Source: Cryptosporangium minutisporangium (lineage in GTDB: Bacteria; Actinomycetota; Actinomycetes; Mycobacteriales; Cryptosporangiaceae). From it: 64,000 nucleotides of DNA. Of this stretch, positions 10,819-29,956 are shown piece by piece. Within the stretch, counting starts at the first letter, position 1. Every line of letters starts with the position of its first letter. The position numbers were made by a program, and so were the translations under genes. The stretch is from contig NZ_BAAAYN010000001.1 of NCBI RefSeq assembly GCF_039536245.1, positions 31,008 to 95,007 on the forward strand, written 5' to 3'. Under the pieces are notes generated by a model. It was not told the origin of the DNA. It worked only from the letters and a program-made list of their open reading frames with translations, and searched no databases.

Positions 10819-11814
10819 TCAGTGAGCGGGCAGGCCGGGCCGGGCGCTCGGTGGGTCGTCGGGAGTGATCGCGCGGCGGTAGCGCTCGGCGAGCCGGCCG
10901 ACCGCCTCGACGAGCTCGGGACCGTCCACGACCGTGAAGTCCGCGTCGAGCAGACCGAGGTAGTGCGCGAGCCGCTGCGGGTTGTCCGAGCCGGGCGTGA
11001 ACTCGCACCGGTCCGGGCCGAGTGGCTGCACGTCGACCGGTACCGGAATGCGATCCCGGACGTACTCCGCGGGCGCGTGCACGATCACCCGGGCCCGGTA
11101 GTGCCAGGGCGCCGCGCCAACGCTCCGGGCCACGGCGGCGGTGATCTCCGCGTCCGGCGGCAGCGCCCGCGGGGTGAAGCGCGGGCCGCCCGGCGTGCGG
11201 GGCGTGATCCGGTCGGCGCGGAACGTCCGCCAGTCCGCCCGATCGGTGTCCCAGGCCACCAGGTACCAGCGGCTGCGGTCGTGGACGAGGCGGTACGGCT
11301 CGACGTCCCGCCGGGTCTCGGTGCCGTCGTGCGACCGGTAGTCGAAGCGGAGCCGCTCGTGGTCACGGCAGGCGCCGGCGATCGTCGTGAGCACCGCCGA
11401 GTCGACCCGCGGGCCGGACACGGGCATCGGCAGCGCGAACTCCCGGAAGGCCGCGGCCCGGTGACGCAGCCGCGCCGGCAGCACTTGGTGCACCTTGGCC
11501 AGTGCTCGCACCGAGGTCTCCTCGATCCCGGCGACCGAGCCGCCCGCGGCGGTACGTAGTCCGACGACGACGGCGACGGCCTCCTCGTCGTCGAGCAGCA
11601 GTGGCGGCAGGGCGGCACCGGTGCCCAGTCGGTAGCCGCCGGCCACCCCGGGGCGGGCGTCCACCGGGTAGCCGAGGCCGCGCAGGCGCTCGACGTCCTT
11701 ACGGATCGTCCGCGCAGTCACCTCGAGCCGCGCCGCGAGCTCCGCCGAGGTCCAGTCACGACGGCTCTGCAAGAGCGACAGCAACCGCAGCAGGCGTCCG
11801 GAAGTTTCTTGCAT
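10819..11814 (-). CDS. WYL-domain (YafY/PafC-like) transcriptional regulator 1
   Basis: This 331-residue protein has an N-terminal winged HTH ([15 protein letters not shown], then recognition helix T-A-R-T-I-R-K-D-V-E-R-L-R). A WYL-type ligand domain (about 140-215, with S-R-W-Y-L-V-A-W-D and W-R-T-F-R-A-D-R-I) and a C-terminal WCX extension follow. ATG 11814 aligns with the start of the paralogue at 28976; an upstream ATG at 11823 is possible. It is divergent from an epoxide hydrolase across a 25-bp inverted repeat, so it likely controls that gene and itself. Confidence 0.88.
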   Translation of the reverse strand: MQETSGRLLRLLSLLQSRRDWTSAELAARLEVTARTIRKDVERLRGLGYPVDARPGVAGGYRLGTGAALPPLLLDDEEAVAVVVGLRTAAGGSVAGIEETSVRALAKVHQVLPARLRHRAAAFREFALPMPVSGPRVDSAVLTTIAGACRDHERLRFDYRSHDGTETRRDVEPYRLVHDRSRWYLVAWDTDRADWRTFRADRITPRTPGGPRFTPRALPPDAEITAAVARSVGAAPWHYRARVIVHAPAEYVRDRIPVPVDVQPLGPDRCEFTPGSDNPQRLAHYLGLLDADFTVVDGPELVEAVGRLAERYRRAITPDDPPSARPGLPAH

Positions 11815-11833
11815 GCCCACCATCTTCGCTGCA

Positions 11834-11858
11834 ATTGCGGAACGAACTGATCCGCAAT
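11834..11858. promoter_or_regulatory. Operator between WYL regulator 1 and epoxide hydrolase 1
   Basis: Perfect arms ATTGCGGA (11834-11841) and TCCGCAAT (11851-11858) flank the 9-bp spacer ACGAACTGA. Placed between divergent genes, it ends 45 bp before the epoxide hydrolase start. The same design (GGA-ACGAAC-N3-TCC with flanking ATT/AAT) recurs in the same orientation relative to the hydrolase gene at 28934-28956, next to the paralogous pair. Confidence 0.75.
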
Positions 11859-11903
11859 GGACTCTACCGTCGCTCTCGACACCAACTCAGAGGGAGACGC
11901 ACG

Positions 11904-13013
11904 ATGAGCGAGGCCGTCCGACCGTTCCGAATCGCTGTTCCGCAGTCCGACCTCGACGACCTGCATGCGCGCCTCGCGGGCGCCCGCTGGCCCGCCGAGT
12001 CGCCCGGCGAGGGCTCCACCCGGGGAGTGTCGCTGGCCCACCTCCGGGAGCTGGCCGACCACTGGCGGACGACGTACGACTGGCGGGCCGCGGAGGCCGA
12101 GCTGAACCGCTATCCACAGTTCGTCACCGAGGTCGAGGGCCAGCGCATCCACTTCCTGCACGTGCGGTCGGCGCGTCCGGACGCCACCGCGCTGATGCTC
12201 ACGCACGGGTATCCGAGCTCCCCCGCCGAGTTCCTGGACCTGATCGAGTTATTGACCGCGGACTTCCACCTGGTCGTGCCGTCGCTGCCGGGGTACGGCT
12301 TCTCGACACCGCTGTCCGGAGCGGGCTGGACGTTGAGCCGGACCGCGCGGGCGTGGGCGGAGATCATGCGCCGGCTGGGCTACCCGCGCTACGGGGTGCA
12401 CGGCGGGGACATCGGCGCCGGCGTCTCCGGCGCGGTCGCGGCGATCGACGGTGACCACGTGCTCGGCATCCACGTGGTGACCGAGCCGTTGACGGCTGCG
12501 GCCACCGCGACGTTCATCCCGGGAATGGCCGACAACCTCGACGAGTCCGACCCCGTCGACAAGCTGATCCTGGACCGGATGGCCGCGTTCCGCGACGAGG
12601 GCTCGGGCTACCTGGCCATCCAGAACAGCCGCCCGCAGACGATCGCTTACGGGCTCAGCGATTCGCCGGTGTTCCAGCTCGCCTGGATCGCCGACAGCTT
12701 CGAGGCGTGGACGCAGCTGCCGGTTGACCGCGATCGGCTGCTGACCAACGTCAGCCTGTACTGGTTCACCGGTGCGGGGTCGGGCGCCGCGCACACGCTC
12801 TACGACCAGGCGCACTCGTCGGACTGGGGCGGGCCCGTGTCGGCGCCGCAGGGGTTCGCGGTCTTCGGTGCCGACGAGACGGTCCGGCGGCTCGTTCCCG
12901 CCCCCGAGGGGACGCACTGGACCGAGTTCGCCCACGGCGGGCACTTCCCGGCGCTGGAGGCACCGGCCGATCTCGCCGCCGACCTGCGGGCGTTCTTCGG
13001 GCCGCTGTCCTGA
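11904..13013 (+). CDS. Epoxide hydrolase (EHN-domain alpha/beta hydrolase) 1
   Basis: This 369-residue protein has the epoxide-hydrolase N-terminal domain (residues 5-110, with Y-D-W-R and H-F-L-H-V-R-S). An alpha/beta-hydrolase core follows, with oxyanion motif H-G-Y-P (101-104), nucleophile Asp169 in H-G-G-D-I-G-A, and a catalytic His near the C-terminus in A-H-G-G-H-F-P. The reaction is hydrolysis of epoxides to diols. ATG 11904 has AGGGAG upstream. It is about 40-45% similar by eye to the second copy at 27802-28914, and each copy sits opposite a WYL regulator. A strong terminator follows. Confidence 0.9.
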   Translation: MSEAVRPFRIAVPQSDLDDLHARLAGARWPAESPGEGSTRGVSLAHLRELADHWRTTYDWRAAEAELNRYPQFVTEVEGQRIHFLHVRSARPDATALMLTHGYPSSPAEFLDLIELLTADFHLVVPSLPGYGFSTPLSGAGWTLSRTARAWAEIMRRLGYPRYGVHGGDIGAGVSGAVAAIDGDHVLGIHVVTEPLTAAATATFIPGMADNLDESDPVDKLILDRMAAFRDEGSGYLAIQNSRPQTIAYGLSDSPVFQLAWIADSFEAWTQLPVDRDRLLTNVSLYWFTGAGSGAAHTLYDQAHSSDWGGPVSAPQGFAVFGADETVRRLVPAPEGTHWTEFAHGGHFPALEAPADLAADLRAFFGPLS

Positions 13014-20310: not shown

Positions 20311-20721
20311 TCAGGCGACGACGTCCAGTACCCAGACGACGCCGAACCGGTCCCGGAGCATTCCGTAGAGCGGCGCCCAGCCGGCCGGTGCGAGGTCCTG
20401 GACGATGGTGGCGCGGTCGGACAGGCTCTTCCAGTAGGACGTGATCTCCTCGGCCGACGTGCCGCGGACCGAGACGAAGAACGCGTTCTGGCCGGGCTCC
20501 CACGGCAGGCTGCCCGGGACGTCGTAGGCCATCACCGCGAACCCGTCGGCGCTGCGGACCTGGCCCCACATGATCTCCTCCGCCGCGGCGGGGTCCTGCA
20601 CATTCTGCGCGTCGGCGTAGCTGACGAGGGTGAGCTCGCCGCCGAAGACGCCTCGGTAGAACTCCAGCGCGGCGCGGGCGTCGCCGCGGAAGTTGAGGTG
20701 GGTAGTCGTGGTCACGGCCAT
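20311..20721 (-). CDS. VOC superfamily protein (PhnB/glyoxalase-like)
   Basis: This 136-residue protein opens with the PhnB-like pattern H-L-N-F-R-G-D-A-R-A-A-L-E-F-Y and ends D-R-F-G-V-V-W-V-L-D. That is the beta-alpha-beta-beta-beta fold of extradiol dioxygenase and glyoxalase relatives. The metal ligand set is incomplete, as usual for this subgroup. It is divergent from the third WYL regulator with 87 bp between, so control by that regulator is likely. ATG 20721 is the start; the much longer frame upstream is antisense to the regulator. Confidence 0.87.
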   Translation of the reverse strand: MAVTTTTHLNFRGDARAALEFYRGVFGGELTLVSYADAQNVQDPAAAEEIMWGQVRSADGFAVMAYDVPGSLPWEPGQNAFFVSVRGTSAEEITSYWKSLSDRATIVQDLAPAGWAPLYGMLRDRFGVVWVLDVVA

Positions 20722-20808
20722 GAGGGCTCCTTCGTCGATAGGGACGGCCGCCAGCCTCGGCGGAGAAGAGGACAGGATCTGGCCGCTACTCCGGGCATGC
20801 TGGGTGCC

Positions 20809-21840
20809 ATGCGTCACACCTCCGGGCGGCTGCTCGCTCTGCTCTCGCTGCTGCAGGCCCGCCGCGACTGGCCGGGCCAGCTGCTCGCCGAGCGGTTGGA
20901 CGTCAGCCCGCGCACCGTGCGGCGCGACGTCGACCGGCTGCGCGAGCTCGGCTACCCGATCCGGGCGGTCAAGGGCCCCGACGGCGGCTATCGGCTCGAC
21001 GCCGGCACCCAGCTGCCGCCCCTGCTCTTCGACGACGAACAAGCGGTAGCGCTGGCCGTGGCGCTGCGGATCGCGGTCACCTCCGGGGCGGGTATCGAGG
21101 AGGCCGCCGCCCGAGCGCTGACCACCGTCCGGCAGGTGATGCCCGCCCGCCTGCGGCACCGCATCGACGCCCTGGAGCTGACCGCCGTCGAGCGCGGCGG
21201 CGTCCGCACGACGCCCCAGGCCGACAGTGGGGTGCTGCTGACGCTGGGCGCCGCGATCCGCGCCCGCGAGGTGCTGCGCTTCGACTACGCGCCCGCGACG
21301 CGCCGGGCCACCGGCGCCGCGGAGGGCGCCACGGACGACGCCGCGCAGGACCTCGTGCCGCCGCGCCAGGTGGAGCCGCACCACCTGGTCACCTGGGGCG
21401 GACGGTGGTACCTCGTCGCCTGGGACCTCGACCGGAACGACTGGCGTACGTTCCGCGTCGACCGGATCGTCCCGCGCACCCCGACCGGCCCGCGGTTCAC
21501 TCCGCGCGAGGTGCCCGGCGGAGAGGTGGCGGCCTTCGTCGCCCATCGTTTCCGTGGCTCCGTCGGGCCGGATCCGTGGCCCTGCCGCGGCGAGGTGATC
21601 CTCGCGCTGCCCGCCGAGGTCGTGGCCCGTTACGCCGGCGACGGCGTCGTCGAGGAGCTGGCCCCCGACCGCTGCCGGCTGGTCCTCGGCTCCTGGTCGT
21701 GGACCGGGCTGGCCGCCGCCCTCGGCAAGTTCGACGCCGACCTCGAGGTGATCGACCCGCCCGAGCTGCGGCACGCGTTCGCCCGGCTGTCCCGGAGATA
21801 CGCGGCCGCCGCGGCGTCGAAGGGCACCGCCTCCGCCTAA
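20809..21840 (+). CDS. WYL-domain transcriptional regulator 3
   Basis: This 343-residue paralogue of the regulators at 10819 and 28976 starts R-H-T-S-G-R-L-L-A-L-L-S-L-L-Q-A-R-R-D-W. Its recognition helix is S-P-R-T-V-R-R-D-V-D-R-L-R and its WYL core is G-R-W-Y-L-V-A-W-D-L-D. A roughly 20-residue insert rich in Ala, Asp and Gly precedes the WYL core, making it longer than the other two. It is divergent from a VOC gene rather than an epoxide hydrolase, and I do not find the shared operator motif there. ATG 20809 is used; ATG 20797 is possible. Confidence 0.87.
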   Translation: MRHTSGRLLALLSLLQARRDWPGQLLAERLDVSPRTVRRDVDRLRELGYPIRAVKGPDGGYRLDAGTQLPPLLFDDEQAVALAVALRIAVTSGAGIEEAAARALTTVRQVMPARLRHRIDALELTAVERGGVRTTPQADSGVLLTLGAAIRAREVLRFDYAPATRRATGAAEGATDDAAQDLVPPRQVEPHHLVTWGGRWYLVAWDLDRNDWRTFRVDRIVPRTPTGPRFTPREVPGGEVAAFVAHRFRGSVGPDPWPCRGEVILALPAEVVARYAGDGVVEELAPDRCRLVLGSWSWTGLAAALGKFDADLEVIDPPELRHAFARLSRRYAAAAASKGTASA

Positions 21841-26689: not shown

Positions 26690-27772
26690 TCAGGACACCG
26701 CGTCGAACCTGACGTCGTGTGACGCATCGGGTTCGAGGAATGCGAGCAGGTCGAGCCCTTCCGCCGTCGCGGCGTCCCGGTCGGCGGTGGACAGCGGCAG
26801 GAACGTCCGTACGACCAGTGTGGCATCGCCGCGGGTCTTCTCGACCGTCCACGCCGCCGCGGTGACACCGTCGACGAGCACGGGGTGCGGTACCGGCCCG
26901 TGCGGCGTCACCGCCTTGGTGCGGAACTCCTCGGAGACGAATCGGCCGCGGTCCTTGTGTGAGAGCAGCAGGTTGTCGAAGTCGTACAGGAACCGCACGG
27001 GTGCCGGCGTGTCCGGATCGGGACGCGGGGCGTCGGGCAGGTCGAGGTACCCGCCGGCGAACTCGACCAGCCGGAGCCGCTCGACGATCTCGCTCAACTT
27101 CGTGAGCCCGCACCACATCTGGATGTCCTGGACCGTCGCCGGTCCGTACGCGGCCAGGTACCGCAGCACCAACGTCTCCAGCGACGCGGTCCGTGCCGGC
27201 GCGTCGACCCATTCGTCCAGCGGCGCGTGCGTCGTGCGGCCGCTGCGTTTCCACACTCCCCGCGGCGGGATCTGCACCACCGGCAGAAGGTTGCGCACCG
27301 TGTACGCGAGCGCCGCGGCATCGTTGTCGGGCCACCGCTCCAGCAGCGCCTCGCCGAGCTCCGCCGGGGTGCGCGGCCGCTCGGCCAGGATTTCGTGGCC
27401 GGCCGCCACGACCGCGTCGGTGTCGAGCCCGCGCGTCCAGCGCCCGTGGGTGCTGTTGCGGAACAGGTCCCGGTCGAGTGCCGGCTGCACGAGCGGGCGC
27501 AAGGCCACCGCATCGGCCGCGCTGACGAAGTGGATCGTCGAACGCATCAACGCCATCCGCACCGCCCGGCGCGAGGTGAGCAGATCGGCCACGTCGGCGG
27601 GCGGGCATCCGGCGACACGCGCCCACAGACCGACGTACCAGGTATGCGGCGTCTGCGCCTGGAGGCCGACGAGGTGCTCGGTCACCTCCAGCGGCGGCAG
27701 CCCGGTCCGCCGCAGCAGGAACTGCCGCGCCAAGGTGGCCCGGTTCAACGCCCGGTGATCGAGCACGCTCAT
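26690..27772 (-). CDS. AlkZ/YcaQ-like winged-helix DNA glycosylase family protein
   Basis: This 360-residue protein belongs to the HTH_42 family. Its H-L-V-G-L-Q-A-Q-T segment (about 33-41) holds the Q-x-Q motif that is catalytic in AlkZ. The region W-x-V-G-L-W-A-R, the central winged helices, and the C-terminal R-F-L-Y-D-F-D-N-L-L-L-S-H segment are typical. AlkZ-type enzymes unhook DNA interstrand crosslinks or remove bulky N7 adducts; the actinobacterial subgroup is less studied, so activity is inferred. It sits 29 bp downstream of epoxide hydrolase 2 on the same strand and may share its WYL-controlled mRNA. Confidence 0.85.
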   Translation of the reverse strand: MSVLDHRALNRATLARQFLLRRTGLPPLEVTEHLVGLQAQTPHTWYVGLWARVAGCPPADVADLLTSRRAVRMALMRSTIHFVSAADAVALRPLVQPALDRDLFRNSTHGRWTRGLDTDAVVAAGHEILAERPRTPAELGEALLERWPDNDAAALAYTVRNLLPVVQIPPRGVWKRSGRTTHAPLDEWVDAPARTASLETLVLRYLAAYGPATVQDIQMWCGLTKLSEIVERLRLVEFAGGYLDLPDAPRPDPDTPAPVRFLYDFDNLLLSHKDRGRFVSEEFRTKAVTPHGPVPHPVLVDGVTAAAWTVEKTRGDATLVVRTFLPLSTADRDAATAEGLDLLAFLEPDASHDVRFDAVS

Positions 27773-27801: not shown

Positions 27802-28914
27802 CTACTGGTTGTTACGGAAGAACTCGCGCATGTCGGCGACCAGCGTCGCCGGCGCATCGTGCGCGGAGTAATGGCTACCTTCGTCGTAGTACCGCCACGA
27901 GACGATGTTCGCGTGGTCGCGTTCGCCGAGCGCGCGGATCGACTGGAAGTCGTACTTGAAGTTGGCCAGCCCCAGCGGGACCGTCGTCGGCCCCTCCGGC
28001 TTGTCGGACGCGTGCCGGTCCTCGAAGTACAGCCGCGCCGCCGATCCGGCCGTGTTCGTGAACCAGTAGATGCTCACGTTCGTGAGCACGAGGTCGGAGT
28101 CGAGCGAGCCGATCAGCTGCGCGCTCCACGCCAACTGGGCCACCGGCGAGTCGGCCAGCGCGTGCGCGATCGTCTGCGGCGCGAGCGACTGCATCTTGTC
28201 GTGCGCGCCGCCGTTCTCATTCCACCACTGCAGGAACTGCACCCGGCCCCGGTCCTCGTCGGACAGTCCCTCGAGTTCGGCCGGGTCGCCCGACGGGAAC
28301 GAGAACACCTGCGTCACGTGGACGCCGGCCACGTGCTGCGGGTCGGCCCGCCCGACCTCCGGTGCGATGAGCGCCCCGGCGTCGTTGCCATGGACGCCGT
28401 ACCGCTCGTAGCCGAGGCGGCGCATGAGCTCCGCCCACGCCCGGGCGATCCGGTACCGGTTCCAGCCCTTCTCCGCGGTACGGCCGGAGAAGGCGAATCC
28501 AGGGATCGACGGGATCACGAGGTGGAACGCGTCGGCCGGGTCGCCGCCGTGCGCCCGCGGGTCGCTCAACGGCCCGATCACGTCGATGAAGTCGAGTACC
28601 GAGCCCGGCCAGCTGTGCGTGAGGATCAGCGGCGTCGCGTCGGGCTCCGGCGAGCGGACGTGCAGGAAGTGCACGTTCTGCCCGTCGATCGTCGTCGCGA
28701 ACTGCGGAAAGGCGTTGAGCCGCTTCTCCCAGGCGCGCCAGTCGTACCCGTCGCGCCACCGCTGGACCAGCGACCGGACCCGCTCCAGTGACACGCCGTA
28801 GTCTTCACCCGCGTCGGGCAGCTCGTCGGTGAACCGGGCCCGCGCCAGGCGGTCGGCGAGGTCGTCGAGGTCGGCCTGCGGGATGTCGATCGTGAATTCG
28901 CGGATCTCTGTCAT
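27802..28914 (-). CDS. Epoxide hydrolase (EHN-domain alpha/beta hydrolase) 2
   Basis: This 370-residue paralogue of the enzyme at 11904 shares the Y-D-W-R and V-H-F-L-H-V-R-S blocks. The oxyanion region is H-S-W-P (100-103), the nucleophile Asp178 lies in H-G-N-D-A-G-A, and a catalytic His is in D-E-G-S-H-Y-S near the C-terminus. ATG 28914 has GAGGG eight bases upstream. It is divergent from WYL regulator 2 and shares with copy 1 an operator of the same design. An AlkZ-like gene follows downstream. Confidence 0.9.
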
Positions 28915-28933
28915 GCCGGAACCCTCGCACCGC

Positions 28934-28956
28934 ATTAGGAGAGGTTCGTTCCTAAT
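28934..28956. promoter_or_regulatory. Operator between epoxide hydrolase 2 and WYL regulator 2
   Basis: Perfect arms ATTAGGA (28934-28940) and TCCTAAT (28950-28956) flank a 9-bp spacer. Read on the hydrolase strand the spacer is ACGAACCTC, against ACGAACTGA at the other divergon. The shared pattern is GGA-ACGAAC-N3-TCC within matching ATT/AAT arms. It lies 20 bp from each of the two divergent start codons, so a bound protein would block both promoters. Confidence 0.78.
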
Positions 28957-28975
28957 AGCGTGGGATCCTGAAACC

Positions 28976-29956
28976 ATGTTGGAGACGTCCGCGCGCCTGT
29001 TGCGCCTGTTGTCGCTGCTGCAGAGTCAGCGGGATTGGACCGGCACCGAGCTGGCCGCACGCCTCCAGGTGAGCGGGCGCACGATTCGGGCCGACATCGA
29101 ACGCCTGCGCACCCTCGGATACCCCATCGAGGGACTCCGCGGGGCGGTCGGCGGCTACCGGCTCGGCGCCGGCGCCGACATGCCTCCACTGCTGCTCGAC
29201 GACGACGAGGCGGTCGTGGCCACCGTCGCGCTCCAGGCTGCCGCGTCGGGGTCGATCGGCAGCTCACCGCGCGGCGTGGAGGAGACCGCGCTCCGCGCCC
29301 TCACCAAACTCGAACGGGTGCTCCCGCCCCGGCTCCGCCGCCGGGCCACCGCCCTACGGATGGTCACCGTGGCCGTGCGTCCCGATACGGCCGGCCCGGT
29401 CGTCGACCCCGCCGTGCTGTCGACGCTGGCCGCCGCCTGCCGCGAGCACGAAGGCATCCGCTTCGACTACGAGTCCCACGGCGCGGTGGCCTCGCGGCGC
29501 GAGGTGGAGCCATATCGGCTCGTCAACTGGGGCCGCCGCTGGTACCTGTTCGCCTACGACCTGAGCCGCTCTGACTGGCGCTCGTTCCGCGTCGACCGGA
29601 TCAGCCTGCGGACGCCGAACAACCCACGGTTCACCCCACGCCCGCTGCCCACCGACGACGTGGCCGCGCACGTCTCCCGCGGCGCCTCCGCGGCTGCCTG
29701 GCGGTACCGGACCGCCGTCATCGTCCACGCCCCGGCGGCCGACATCGCGGCCCGGATCAACCCCGCGGCCGGCTCCGTCGAACCCGGCGACGACGGCCAG
29801 TCCTGCGTGTTCCACACCGGCGCCGACTCCATCGAGACACTGGCGGTACACCTGAGTCTCCTCGACGCCGACTTCACGGTCACCGAACCGGTGGAACTGG
29901 TCGCCCATCTCCGCGCGCTGGCCGACCGTTACACGCGCAGCACGCGGGGAGGCTGA
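28976..29956 (+). CDS. WYL-domain transcriptional regulator 2
   Basis: This 326-residue regulator starts [20 protein letters not shown]. The HTH recognition helix [13 protein letters not shown] and the WYL core R-W-Y-L-F-A-Y-D-L are intact, followed by a WCX tail. It is closest within the window to the regulator at 10819, whose neighbour is also an epoxide hydrolase. The recognition helices differ at only a few positions, in line with similar but not identical operators. The ligand is unknown. Confidence 0.88.

Follow-up and report, generated by a model that had tools for sequence, protein, structure and literature searches.

Palindromes between WYL regulator and epoxide hydrolase genes of Cryptosporangium minutisporangium as variants of a proposed actinobacterial operator class

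The two palindromes that lie between divergent WYL regulator and epoxide hydrolase genes in Cryptosporangium minutisporangium belong, by sequence comparison, to a widespread actinobacterial class of operators of SiwR-like WYL regulators. They are studied here in a stretch of 64,000 nucleotides, called the window. In the reading that we favour, and to which we give a probability of about two in three, they would be operators of SiwR-like homodimers. Each would form a -26 element shared by two promoters, a code at residue 42 of the regulator would specify part of the half-site, and activation would follow single-stranded DNA (ssDNA) or DNA damage. WYL regulators are abundant, and few of them have known sites.

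Operators and divergent genes in the window

Both palindromes are present, with perfect arms, exactly where and as the original prediction had written them (Table 1). Its account of the flanking genes was equally accurate: on both copies Pfam identifies HTH_11 and WYL domains in the regulators, and EHN and abhydrolase domains in the enzymes. HTH_11 and WYL score above the cut-off in WYL1, WYL2 and WYL3, and WCX does so in WYL2 and WYL3 while staying below it in WYL1 (21.6 vs 23.9 bits), which gives the architecture winged HTH, WYL and WCX. The third divergon, that of WYL3, has the commoner form of the operator and goes unmentioned in the original prediction. Its partner is a PhnB-like gene of the VOC type (the N-terminal 90 residues match Pfam Glyoxalase with E 0.0009, slightly below the cut-off).

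Table 1. Operators, predicted -10 boxes and genes, with positions in the window
Feature	Position	Strand	Remarks
Operator copy 1	11834..11858	+	ATTGCGGA-ACGAACTGA-TCCGCAAT; between WYL1 and EH1; position and form kept in relatives
Copy 1, 15-base core	11839-11853		GGAACGAACTGATCC; centre 11846
Operator copy 2	28934..28956	-	ATTAGGA-ACGAACCTC-TCCTAAT on the hydrolase strand; between EH2 and WYL2
Copy 2, 15-base core	28938-28952		Centre 28945
Third operator	20770..20784	+	GGACAGGATCTGGCC; Arg42 type; ahead of WYL3
Predicted -10 box, EH1	11865..11870	+	TACCGT; +19..+24 from centre
Predicted -10 box, WYL1	11822..11827	-	GAAGAT
Predicted -10 box, EH2	28921..28926	-	GAGGGT
Predicted -10 box, WYL2	28964..28969	+	GATCCT
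WYL1 regulator	10819..11823	-	HTH_11 + WYL; start anchored at Met4, 11814; residue 42 = Lys
EH1, EHN-type epoxide hydrolase	11904..13013	+	PF06441
WYL2 regulator	28976..29956	+	HTH_11 + WYL + WCX; helix column 42 = Ala
EH2, EHN-type epoxide hydrolase	27802..28914	-	PF06441
AlkZ-like DNA glycosylase	26690..27772	-	PF06224, E 2.3e-81; 29 bp downstream of EH2, same strand
WYL3 regulator	20809..21840	+	HTH_11 + WYL + WCX; residue 42 = Arg
Glyoxalase/PhnB-like (VOC) gene	20311..20721	-	Divergent from WYL3

The symmetry of the outer arms masks an inner asymmetry. In both copies the WYL-proximal half, GGAACG, is the sole regular half-site; the hydrolase-proximal halves, GGATCA in copy 1 and GGAGAG in copy 2 (WYL strand), are degenerate when compared with relatives. 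The two copies are variants of the operator class, each with one regular and one degenerate half.

Equally long perfect arms with a spacer of 5 to 13 arose in 98 of 20000 dinucleotide shuffles of the intergenic stretch for copy 1, and in 407 of 20000 for copy 2. The pattern GGAACGAACNNNTCC occurs twice in the window without mismatches; when up to two mismatches are allowed, it is found 10 times in the window against 6.55 expected, a number reached by 12 of 100 shuffles and not significant. Given these shuffle frequencies and the lack of enrichment of the loose pattern, each element alone is only modestly unlikely, and the strength of the case comes from comparison. Short palindromes are common, and with these frequencies in mind one might regard the two elements as products of chance, or as transcription terminators, with no link to the regulators. 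We consider this exceedingly improbable: the elements stand upstream of two start codons and not behind a gene, and position, form and covariation are kept over 182 loci, as described below.

The palindrome in related regulators

The genome (9.23 Mb, 152 contigs) holds 18 WYL matches, and a 15-base quasi-palindrome can be read upstream of nine of its HTH_11-WYL genes, copies 1 and 2 of the window included. A position weight matrix built from these nine sites, which are themselves within the 143 distinct WYL loci scored, reached a score of at least 8 in 92 of 143 upstream regions among the matches listed. Of the shuffles, 46 of 715 scored as high, and of the coding controls, 0 of 143.

A second search made no use of a matrix: it looked for GG-N11-CC in which 2 or more of the 6 flank pairs were complementary. 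Relatives were taken as best matches, namely the best 80 of at least 585 confirmed in one search, and the best ones in the others. The first set started from 236 hits, of which 222 distinct ones were kept (13 duplicates and 1 truncated protein dropped); 217 of these have the RTxxxD helix, 197 have a site and 182 have a positioned site. A larger set, which overlaps the first, comprised 307 distinct proteins (16 duplicates, 3 truncated and 1 short dropped), then 294 with RTxxxD, 268 with a site and 240 positioned. Among the matches listed, 197 of 217 distinct relatives have the palindrome upstream, whereas 292 of 2170 shuffles contain it; measured from the aligned start of the regulator, 168 of these 197 palindromes begin precisely at position -39 or -38. 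Base counts were limited to sites at -42 to -35, so that the distance to the WYL start in the set of 182 is bounded by selection. Since sites were picked by GG-N11-CC, bases 1, 2, 14 and 15 are fixed by selection as well, while base 4 is free.

Loss of the element from related divergons had been named beforehand as one observation that would count against the proposal; the palindrome is in fact kept, in position and in form. Its conserved place and sequence and its covariation with the recognition helix make it very probable that this WYL subfamily recognises the palindrome, as had been proposed. HTH_11-WYL(-WCX) regulators would bind it, probably as homodimers, with each recognition helix reading one half-site. 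The more detailed signature GGA-ACGAAC-N3-TCC did not hold for the family: the predicted start, GGAACGAAC, is found in 10 of 101 epoxide hydrolase (EH) divergons among the matches listed, which rules out ACGAAC as the consensus of the operator class. The commonest half-sites of the Arg42 class, among the matches listed, are GGACAG and GGTCAG.

At six loci (L008, L037, L030, L031, L114 and L118), WYL genes are divergent from closely similar ABC-transporter ATPases. The operators there are of the type GGYCA-N4-CTGRCC, and in five of the six CC immediately precedes the site.

Promoter geometry

Among the matches listed, an EHN hydrolase is the divergent gene at 101 of 182 loci, and the gap between the two genes measures 61 to 64 bp in 88 of these 101 divergons. 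The operator centre lies 31 to 32 bp from the regulator start and 30 to 31 bp from the hydrolase start in 84 of the 101; the distance on the hydrolase side is free of selection, unlike that on the regulator side (-42 to -35). Copy 2 follows this layout, with a 61-bp gap and an operator centre 31 bp from each start. Copy 1 has a longer gap but keeps the usual spacing between operator and -10 box.

On the hydrolase side, a -10 box of the form xANNNT was present at all 101 EH loci among the matches listed, with A at +20 and T at +24 from the operator centre, and 84 of them had the fuller T19A20T24. At control offsets on the same side, an A/T pair of the same spacing occurred at a mean of 0.012 and a maximum of 0.059. 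The A20/T24 pair is also found on the WYL side, at 172 of the 182 loci listed. At non-EH loci, where neighbours were identified in part, the partner-side -10 box was seen in just 47 of 81 among the matches listed.

Transcription that begins at the start codon, or close to it, would put the centre of GGA/TCC at about -26 in each promoter. In EH divergons the two facing promoters are probably leaderless. EH1 is predicted to be leadered, unlike most hydrolases of EH divergons, its ATG being 58 bp from the operator centre. SiwR combines a gap of this type with a palindrome at its centre and GGA at -26, and the same combination is found here when predicted starts are used, with a longer gap in copy 1. 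In the promoter motif of PafBC, the step from TGTC to TANNNT is likewise 16 bases. We propose that two divergent sigma-A promoters, one for the regulator and one for the hydrolase and both without the usual -35 box, would share the operator as their -26 element.

Residue 42 and base 4 of the half-site

Over the 182 positioned sites, the fourth base of the half-site was compared with helix residue 42 (WYL1 numbering). With Arg42, base 4 was C in 193 of 200 half-sites; with Asn42, it was A in 118 of 118; with Ala, Ser or Thr42, it was A in 35 of 38, and base 5 was G in 34 of 38; with Lys42, it was A in 6 of 8 (all among the matches listed). The larger, overlapping set of 240 sites gave C4 in 300 of 310 half-sites for Arg42 and A4 in 124 of 124 for Asn42, and the base-4 rule was broken at 7 of 155 Arg42 loci, again among the matches listed. 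Base 4 was A in both halves at 77 of 82 non-Arg42 loci listed, and copies 1 and 2 are both among the five exceptions. WYL2, which has Ala42, also breaks the base-5 trend of Ala42 proteins, since its regular half has C5 and not G5.

Of the protein columns with at most 20 gaps, which were those scored, column 42 stood far ahead in normalised mutual information with base 4, at 0.50 in one half and 0.54 in the other, the next values being 0.21 and 0.17; in the same scan, flank bases and base 3 showed no clear protein-column partner. The column falls within the predicted recognition helix, residues 37-49 of the WYL1 structure model, and is aligned with R50 of PafB, while column 38 is aligned with R46. 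A PafB double alanine mutant at R46/R50 has a phenotype like that of the pafBC knockout (PMC6789036), and activation is lost in SiwR R38A-R42A (PMC10693628), whose residues 38 and 42 were matched to columns 38 and 42 by spacing alone. Arg38 is retained in WYL1 and WYL2, and WYL3 has both arginines. Because their residue 42 is not Arg, copies 1 and 2 were filed as a variant of the SiwR-type divergon. Residue 42 would set base 4, with Arg specifying GG(A/T)C, Asn specifying GGAA, and Ala, Ser or Thr specifying GGAAG.

How often did residue and base change together? In trees built without the HTH, parsimony counted 8 changes between Arg and non-Arg at residue 42 in the first set and 6 in the larger one. 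Well-supported independent Arg/non-Arg pairs numbered 3 and 2, respectively, and none was discordant. The switch between Asn and Ala/Ser/Thr gave 4 supported pairs; in most random pairings all of them agreed, and occasionally a discordant pair turned up. No single test of independent switches was significant. Widening the sample by 90 loci (30 + 60) as a way to gain switches was not successful, as supported Arg/non-Arg pairs fell from 3 to 2. With so few changes and pairs, the association could be mostly a matter of shared ancestry, the Arg and non-Arg clades differing for other reasons. This explanation seems to us quite improbable. The supported Arg/non-Arg pairs are never discordant, base 5 mostly tracks residue 42 once more inside the non-Arg set, and no other column comes close in mutual information. 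Moreover, at columns 38 and 42 PafB has arginines that are essential (PMC6789036), as apparently does SiwR, and the arginines of DriD read the guanines of GAC-N7-GTC (PMC12340889). The specificity of the operator thus appears to be partly readable from residue 42 of the regulator, with few independent switches behind the association.

History of the two divergons

The original prediction held that the divergon had been duplicated and had diverged as a unit. Its second half agrees with the data: regulator and hydrolase distances are correlated (Mantel r 0.68, 0 of 2000 permutations as high, n = 101), as expected of genes inherited together. A duplication linking copies 1 and 2 does not agree with the ranks. 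In the list of 182 matches of WYL1, WYL2 comes at rank index 141, and in that of WYL2, WYL1 comes at 59 of 182; similarly, EH2 stands at rank 90 among the 101 matches of EH1, and EH1 at 81 of 101 in the list of EH2. Among the matches listed, WYL1 is closest to proteins from another genome of its genus (82%) and from Virgisporangium (70%), and the nearest relatives of WYL2 are at 66%, also in other genomes. As each copy has its nearest relatives elsewhere, a recent duplication of the two divergons is rejected. By these comparisons the divergon is inherited as a unit, and copies 1 and 2 are old, separately related lineages.

Sites elsewhere in the genome

In the 9.23 Mb genome, GGAACGAACNNNTCC occurs four times, against 0 for a reversed control pattern; two of these sites are outside the window, at L003 and L004. 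Neither was retained as an unlinked target. The L003 site is inside an ORF. The L004 site is centred 33 bp ahead of a DinB-like ORF, but A..T is missing where the -10 box should be (the family name is our reading of the protein, and the absence of the box our reading of the sequence). This site is GGAACGAACTGTTCC (L004:1501-1515), and a second similar palindrome is nearby; no WYL gene was seen in the 3-kb L004 locus. When the operator pattern was combined with the box, eight matches were obtained in the genome against 0 for the reversed control, two of them being the window copies. With one mismatch allowed, the Arg42-type pattern matched 29 palindromic places and its control pattern 18, which is too noisy to define a regulon.

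Partner genes

A Pfam scan of partners, made on nine 90-residue pieces, placed single examples of other families above the cut-off: ABC transporter, NmrA, MFS, DinB_2, SDR and AlkZ-like. Varied partners behind the same operator argue against one dedicated epoxide ligand.

AlkZ-like genes were encountered on the divergent side at 24 of 182 operator loci listed; 18 of these are among the 101 EH loci and 6 among the 81 non-EH loci listed. Fifteen of the 18 matches at EH loci start 1175 to 1255 bp from the WYL start, that is, directly behind the hydrolase gene, and 5 of the 6 at non-EH loci are directly divergent from the WYL gene. Such cases behind EH genes may be missed, as only 67 of the 182 loci hold at least 2 kb of upstream sequence. 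Among the 182, two further loci have an AlkZ-like gene downstream of the WYL gene and convergent to it, and none has one on the WYL strand. The genome itself has 9 AlkZ-like genes above the cut-off. At copy 2, EH2 and the AlkZ-like gene probably form one operon, and the glycosylase would be activated along with the hydrolase. At L012, a WYL gene is divergent from an ORF that starts, in our reading of the sequence, like a UvrA-type ATPase; its only Pfam match is ABC_tran, below the cut-off, and an AlkZ-like gene lies 1.7 kb downstream on the contig, convergent. A survey of AlkZ-like genes in mBio mentions ABC, VOC and DinB-type neighbours, and the word WYL is absent from its main text (PMC9040887, cited for part of its content).

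The list of partners, with epoxide hydrolases, AlkZ-like glycosylases, DinB-like proteins, exporters and VOC proteins, suggests a broad role in defence against genotoxins. This is the simplest reading of the biological role that we infer.

Signal and direction of control

R202 and R205 of WYL1 align with the ssDNA-binding R211 and R214 of PafB, and are Arg in 214 of 217 and 213 of 217 relatives, respectively, among the matches listed. Mutation of R211/R214 together with the PafC pair abolishes ssDNA binding by PafBC (PMC11804915). The conservation of these arginines makes ssDNA or DNA damage a likelier signal than epoxides; the epoxide or diol ligand considered in the original prediction finds no support, and the conserved pair that binds ssDNA in PafB points elsewhere. 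Structure comparison of the WYL1 model gave PafB on mycobacterial RNA polymerase as the first match in both searches (Foldseek E 9.2e-15; VIA Z 13.6, rmsd 13.4, 251 aligned). DriD came next in Foldseek, while CapW and BrxR came above DriD in VIA-align. The model is of moderate quality (pLDDT 71, pTM 0.52), and it superposes poorly over the full length (TM 0.32, rmsd over 13).

The same operator could in principle work with the opposite sign. A WYL autorepressor would then cover both facing promoters until an epoxide, a diol or another small molecule released it. The palindrome does lie between both -10 boxes and over both -35 regions, where a bound dimer would block polymerase, and a hydrolase that adjoins its regulator suggests induction by substrate. 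CapW, like other WYL regulators of anti-phage systems, is described as a repressor (PMC10693628). SiwR, however, whose divergon matches in the 62-bp gap and in GGA at -26, activates its target (PMC10693628), the ssDNA-binding arginines are conserved, and EH partners account for just 101 of 182 loci, with other partner families behind the same operator (among the matches listed). We regard autorepression as unlikely, if still the most serious competitor, and by analogy we prefer, with modest confidence, activation by DNA damage to repression relieved by epoxides. On this preferred reading, ssDNA arising from DNA damage would bind the WYL domain, the regulator would then activate the hydrolase by sigma adaptation, and it may adjust its own expression as well.

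Significance and comparison with known systems

If taken together, the observations allow a more ambitious proposal: a single palindrome would supply two facing leaderless promoters with their -26 element, swaps at residue 42 would insulate paralogues from each other, and epoxide hydrolases and AlkZ glycosylases would be under damage control. We put this combination forward tentatively, as somewhat less likely than not. If it is true, natural swaps between Arg, Asn, Ala, Ser and Lys keep the paralogous regulators of one genome apart, and ssDNA-sensing regulators place hydrolases and crosslink glycosylases under DNA-damage control against epoxide genotoxins. An operator that is computable, fixed in position and paired with a swappable specificity residue may make operators predictable for many WYL regulators. 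Were ssDNA, and not the substrate, the cue, the reading of epoxide hydrolases beside WYL genes would change. In open-licence PMC literature, the operator class, the residue-base rule and the EH link were not found among the matches listed; a search for WYL with epoxide hydrolase returned unrelated papers only, and one for the YafY family with epoxide hydrolase and regulator returned none.

PafBC of mycobacteria and Arthrobacter shares with the present system the -26 motif, the residues R46/R50, which correspond to columns 38/42, and R211/R214, which correspond to R202/R205. It differs in being a heterodimer with a non-palindromic site and about 150 genes, which binds no promoter DNA without RNA polymerase (in the parts cited of PMC6789036 and PMC11804915). 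The HTH of PafB engages the -26 promoter motif in sigma adaptation (PMC11804915). Of the PafBC arrangement, with its -26 contact and the partner HTH on sigma domain 4, the fit here is limited to the position of GGA/TCC relative to the predicted -10 box.

DriD of Caulobacter crescentus is a WYL homodimer activated by ssDNA, and its main contacts are with RNA polymerase beta and alpha-CTD, not sigma (PMC12340889, a preprint, cited in part). The spacing of its GAC-N7-GTC core is that of Arg42-type operators, which have G-x-C-N7-G-x-C in 95 of 100 cases and strict GAC-N7-GTC in 45 of 100, among the matches listed. The window copies lack this core, having GAT-N7-TTC (copy 1) and GAG-N7-TTC (copy 2) on the WYL strand.

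SiwR of M. smegmatis, an ssDNA-sensing activator, has a divergent gap of about 60-62 bp with a 19-bp imperfect palindrome and GGA at -26; the homodimer binds this palindrome, and activation requires the -26 region and the ssDNA-binding arginines (PMC10693628). The words 'epoxide', 'autoregul', 'bidirectional' and 'glycosylase' are absent from the main text of that paper (PMC10693628). SiwR targets DinB_2/DUF664 genes, whereas epoxide hydrolases stand on the target side of copies 1 and 2, and its Arg42 is replaced by Lys in WYL1 and by Ala in WYL2, the regular half-sites of the window being of the GGAA type. The siwR/dinS pair and the divergons studied here are alike in having an HTH-WYL-WCX regulator divergent from its target, the gap, the palindrome, GGA at -26 and the arginine pair of the WYL domain (in the part cited of PMC10693628). 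By this analogy, the mode of action resembles that known for SiwR and PafBC, with a residue 42 that departs from the arginine of SiwR.
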